Shown one piece after another: positions 1,452 to 4,670 of a DNA stretch of 40,833 nucleotides. Source of the stretch: an uncultured bacterium (GTDB taxonomy: Bacteria > Krumholzibacteriota > Krumholzibacteriia > LZORAL124-64-63). The stretch is taken from contig CAIWHK010000004.1 of assembly GCA_903912525.1 (NCBI GenBank), positions 1 through 40,833 on the forward strand, read 5' to 3'. Position numbers and translations under genes: made by a program. Under the pieces are notes generated by a model, which saw nothing but the letters and a program-made list of their open reading frames with translations, made no database searches and was not told the DNA's origin. Every line of letters starts with the position of its first letter. Positions within the stretch are counted from its first letter, which is position 1.

Positions 1452-4670
<3,219 letters not shown>

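Follow-up and report, generated by a model that had tools for sequence, protein, structure and literature searches.

A naturally GVHH-type IleRS2, predicted to be mupirocin hyper-resistant, encoded by the one ileS found in a Krumholzibacteriia-like genome

The window, by which we mean the whole 40,833-nucleotide stretch of DNA that was analysed, encodes an isoleucyl-tRNA synthetase (IleRS) of type 2 in which the HxGH signature of class I enzymes is replaced by GVHH. We hold with high confidence that this gene, the only ileS found in its genome and most likely the housekeeping one, encodes a G/AXHH IleRS2 whose motif is old in the gene lineage, and that by homology the enzyme would be catalytically active and resistant to mupirocin. 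Its sequence, type, copy number, conservation and gene tree were established directly, and the coordinates of its features are collected in Table 1.

Table 1. Features of the ileS gene in the window
Feature	Position	Strand	Details and basis
ileS, isoleucyl-tRNA synthetase type 2	1452..4670	+	1072 aa, ATG start, TAG stop
GVHH signature, replacing HxGH	1683..1694	+	residues 78-81; DNA read and alignment
KMSKS motif, canonical	3300..3314	+	residues 617-621; sequence read
HMAPAFGEDD stretch	2472..2501	+	residues 341-350; sequence read, aligned to solved IleRS2 chains

Sequence, type and copy number of the enzyme

The signature is encoded by GGCGTGCACCAT (GGC GTG CAC CAT), which gives G78-V79-H80-H81. 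The HMAPAFGEDD stretch further along is presumably the motif of the editing domain. When the protein was aligned to solved chains with phmmer, GVHH fell in the column of the class I HxGH signature, where 8c8u, 8c8v and 8c9d read GPPTANGLPHVGH (HVGH), the window protein reads GPPTANGMPGVHH, and 8c8w reads GPPTANGLPGVHH, with a GVHH that matches the window protein letter for letter. All four chains are Priestia megaterium IleRS2, and 8c8w is the mutant mut-GVHH-PmIleRS2 (PMC10485003). The window IleRS is identical to this mutant around the site (GPPTANGxPGVHH), but the P. megaterium wild type is HVGH and its GVHH was made in the laboratory, whereas the window enzyme has GVHH naturally. A scan of the whole 1072-residue protein found neither an HxGH nor a second [GA]xHH besides that at residues 78-81, which rules out a canonical signature at another place. 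The earlier note's reading of GVHH in the signature column is thus borne out by the DNA, the frame and the alignment to IleRS2 chains, and the HxGH at another site that it named as a refutation was looked for and not found. With G at the first position and H at the third, the enzyme is a G/AXHH IleRS2.

The assignment to type 2, which the earlier note had also made, was confirmed by scores against known structures and by the C-terminal domain. The protein scored 914.8 bits with the isoleucyl-tRNA synthetase profile TIGR00392 (curated cut-off 621.4) and contains the domains tRNA-synt_1, Anticodon_1 and, at its C-terminus, DUF5915 (residues 879-1071). The four top PDB sequences in the phmmer search were P. 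megaterium IleRS2 entries (981.6-995.4 bits), with 8c8w the best, against 374.3 bits for Staphylococcus aureus IleRS1 (1qu2 sequence) and 350.0-358.2 bits for the P. megaterium IleRS1 entries. The alignment to P. megaterium IleRS2 reaches residue 1064, and that to S. aureus IleRS1 ends at residue 828. The enzyme is therefore nearer to IleRS2 than to IleRS1 and has the type-2 C-terminal region. Matches to the NCBIfam models of MupA and MupB cover most of its length, and it shares 39.5% identity with the plasmid-borne MupA of staphylococci; however, its scores of 868.6 and 858.2 bits, respectively, lie far under the cut-off of 1900, and the window gene is the only ileS found in its genome.

That genome comprises 4.29 Mb in 72 contigs, with completeness given as 97.75%. 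In a profile search of the contigs only the window locus exceeded the TIGR00392 cut-off, so that the search for a second ileS suggested in the earlier note yielded one gene and no second, sensitive ileS over that cut-off. Other class I matches on contigs C32, C25 and C22, considered as candidates for such a gene, were excluded as ValRS, LeuRS and MetRS, each over its NCBIfam cut-off; a further class I match on C72 is short and weak (27.8 bits). Because it is the only ileS found, the window gene is most likely the housekeeping isoleucyl-tRNA synthetase of its genome.

The signature in relatives and on the gene tree

The motif was then sought in 58 genomes including the window's own, 35 from the same family and 23 belonging to other families in the class. 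Within the family, GVHH was present in 33 of 33 readable genomes, own included; this count scores G014 as GVHH despite one internal TAA in the matched frame, and the two unreadable genomes had no IleRS (G013) or an IleRS without gene start (G032). Nothing was found in favor of an assembly or sequencing error, or of a non-functional paralogue. Given the identical residues in all readable genomes of the family, the open frame with its KMSKS motif, and the position of the gene as sole ileS over the cut-off in a genome given as nearly complete, we attach almost no probability to such an artifact.

In the other families of the class 20 of 23 genomes were readable (G043 had no IleRS, and G048 and G050 lacked the gene start), and 16 of these 20 carry GVHH. 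The remaining four comprise G035 and G039, with an HYGH IleRS2 (L140 and L141), and G046 and G038, with a type-1-like IleRS (L143 and L144) that has HVGH within a GDIHVGH context and was assigned to IleRS1, the sensitive type. As these enzymes stand in the place of the GVHH enzyme, whole-gene replacement of ileS is suggested in all four. Counted among the 16 is G057, in which GVHH lies within another IleRS2 subtype (NPMGVHH). Here one locus (L145, C178:1-1800) encodes the N-terminal part of this different subtype (FLDGPITANNPMGVHHAWG) and another (L151, C35:1-1800) the C-terminal part of an IleRS2 of the common type, so that G057 either has a second ileS or is a mixed bin.

Among named loci, the two best relatives are Krumholzibacteriia MAGs with 75 and 74% identity, and the best 80 matches listed divide into 27 GXHH and 53 HXGH, a proportion that is no census since only those best 80 are listed. 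Four IleRS2 were also read from a plasmid collection (L160-L163): Rhodococcus opacus has GTHH, encoded by a plasmid that was typed as mobilizable, an 11.85-Mb Nonomuraea record has GVHH, Sutcliffiella has HAGH and Paenibacillus has HIGH. As second residue of the motif, T and A are not among the I/V/L/M/Y listed in the legend to Fig. 1 of PMC10485003; further records with such a residue, as GAHH or HAGH, are L034, L014, L021 and L026.

A gene tree was calculated from 74 rows, 72 IleRS2 and two IleRS1, under LG+G4 with a quick search and no bootstrap, after the six alignment columns around the motif had been dropped. Every fourth of the 47 HIGH rows was included (12 rows) and 15 same-family rows were thinned; omitted were L102 (internal stop), the incomplete L116, L139, L142 and L147-L150, L117 as a duplicate of the window gene, L145, and rows without gene start. 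The motif state changes once on this tree; SH-aLRT support for the fork that unites the GXHH rows is 88, below the starred level. The 52 rows on the GXHH side come from Krumholzibacteriia, relatives within the window's class, Cloacimonadota, some Clostridia-type Bacillota, one bin titled Armatimonadota, one titled Gemmatimonas and some titled only "bacterium"; the Bacillota with HXGH lie on the opposite side, together with the HYGH rows and IleRS1. A row that carries the title Krumholzibacteriia (L009) does not differ from that of G023, from the window's own family. The IleRS2 of the Gemmatimonas sp.-titled bin (L010) falls among the window's family and that of the Armatimonadota-titled bin (L032) among Cloacimonadota, reflecting either mislabelled bins or transfer. 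The HAGH of L014, L021 and L026, records with the title Thermoanaerobacterales or related to these, was considered as a reversion from GXHH and rejected, as these rows are placed on the HXGH side.

Because the motif changes once, GXHH looks old in this gene lineage, by descent or by gene transfer, and common to Cloacimonadota and some Clostridia. ileS2 has been reported to track the species tree only over short distances, with ancient horizontal transfers (PMC4861432), and a single change on the gene tree is therefore no demonstration of vertical inheritance by the organisms.

Predicted catalysis and mupirocin resistance

What the motif does and how widely it occurs have already been published along with the motif itself, and the window IleRS is for this reason a further member of a described group. 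As reported for a tree of 379 IleRS, 86 IleRS2 are G/AXHH and 77 are HXGH, and none of the IleRS1 has the altered motif (Brkic et al. 2023, PMC10485003). At least two gains of G/AXHH were inferred there, together with a reversion in Deinococcus-Thermus, and Streptomyces griseus and Deinococcus radiodurans provide natural examples. The spread of the trait beyond Bacillales that the earlier note suggested is not new, given these 86 prokaryotic enzymes, their at least two origins and the two published examples. In the literature collection searched, no paper combined Krumholzibacteri- and mupirocin, and none of the titles listed was on a wider census of the motif. With the published G/AXHH IleRS2 the window enzyme shares type 2, GVHH, a canonical KMSKS and the finding of one ileS; it differs in its Krumholzibacteriia-like lineage and in being known here from its sequence alone.

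Exchange of the signature residues shifts the Ki for mupirocin by ~200- to 800-fold in the published kinetics (PMC10485003). The natural ALHH enzyme of D. radiodurans has a Ki of 6.6 mM, which falls 823-fold on conversion to HVGH, and a kcat/KM similar to that of canonical IleRS2. GVHH engineered into HVGH IleRS2 gave Ki values of 35 uM for Thermus thermophilus and 460 uM for P. megaterium, a gain of ~200-fold (for P. megaterium ~430-fold is also given), with KM up and kcat down in both mutants. As these values lie below the 6.6 mM of the ALHH enzyme, how strong the resistance is depends on the remainder of the protein.

Catalysis and resistance of the window enzyme are extrapolated from these homologues. 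Following the mechanism in PMC10485003, the third-position histidine would assume the role, and an equivalent position, of the catalytic first histidine, for which the helix tip, being shifted in IleRS2, would leave space; with the lost residue so replaced and accommodated, activation of isoleucine by a GVHH enzyme would continue. The same histidine would clash with mupirocin, and this clash would place the Ki some two to three orders of magnitude above that of HXGH IleRS2. It is reasonable to predict that the window IleRS has a Ki greatly exceeding the values of IleRS1 and of HXGH IleRS2. The earlier note had named the swap as the published cause of resistance, which the kinetics and structures of PMC10485003 corroborate, and its prediction of hyper-resistance is supported, as a prediction, by homology to the enzymes studied there.

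Origin of the signature

The earlier note had further proposed that the organism may live beside producers of mupirocin-like antibiotics, and we therefore weighed whether such neighbors had exerted recent selection for the swap in this lineage. Antibiotic pressure is indeed supposed in PMC10485003 to have shaped the motif at some time. However, GVHH in every readable genome of the family, and the GXHH rows of several phyla on one side of a single change on the tree, mean that the motif tells little of present neighbors; two members of the class have an assigned IleRS1 and two an HYGH IleRS2, and the genome gives no sign of mupirocin self-production. We consider recent local selection very improbable, and the age of the GXHH state removes the basis for proposing a mupirocin-rich habitat. 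The label "FCB-like" in the same note was likewise not confirmed, since NCBI places Krumholzibacteriota directly under Bacteria.

Four ketoacyl-synthase matches were found in the window's genome, of which one is clearly a modular polyketide synthase (PKS) with its own acyltransferase (AT) domain. It lies on contig C9 at ~151-160 kb (L169:10991-19901), has the order KS-AT-ACP-class III aminotransferase and precedes an NRPS module with condensation, adenylation and carrier domains that continues past the stretch read, forming a hybrid PKS-NRPS locus. The mupirocin PKS is of the trans-AT type, so the PKS with its own AT gives no sign of self-production. A polyketide cluster as self-resistance context of ileS was rejected, the PKS-NRPS with its own AT domain being on C9 and ileS on C4.

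Intermediate forms of the motif were sought in 391 genomes from the class of the L075 genome (Hornefia butyriciproducens), which we take to be Clostridia, by exact matching to a DNA pattern that encodes GPPTANGxP...R..KD and leaves all four motif codons free. The site was present in 276 genomes, with no genome row giving more than one match, and the other 115 are uninformative. G/AXHH was found in 88 and HXGH in 188, which together account for all 276, so neither HXHH nor GXGH occurs among the genomes of this one class that have the site. A minimum of four base changes separates HXGH from GXHH, because each of the two replacements, CAY by GGN and GGN by CAY, alters two bases.

It is quite conceivable, at somewhat under even chances, that GXHH represents a neutral or catalytic alternative of long standing in IleRS2, with mupirocin hyper-resistance as a by-product. 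The single change on the tree, retention of the motif across phyla in the sampled rows, the coexistence of 88 G/AXHH and 188 HXGH in the 391 genomes of one class, and the near-canonical kcat/KM of the D. radiodurans ALHH enzyme (PMC10485003) are in line with this origin, but the at least two independent gains reported in that paper are compatible with selection too. Such an origin concerns where the motif came from and leaves the identity and function given above for the enzyme as they are. More tentatively, and in our view rather unlikely, GXHH could be a stable and ancient second solution to the class I active site that became standard across whole phyla, with resistance again a by-product; the half-way forms would then have gone, and no living one would be met, because each single-step intermediate was too poor an enzyme.

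The preferred reading, an old motif in what is most likely a housekeeping G/AXHH IleRS2, documents a Krumholzibacteriia-like lineage in which G/AXHH is the usual IleRS, and the result argues against taking the motif as a sign of present exposure to mupirocin.
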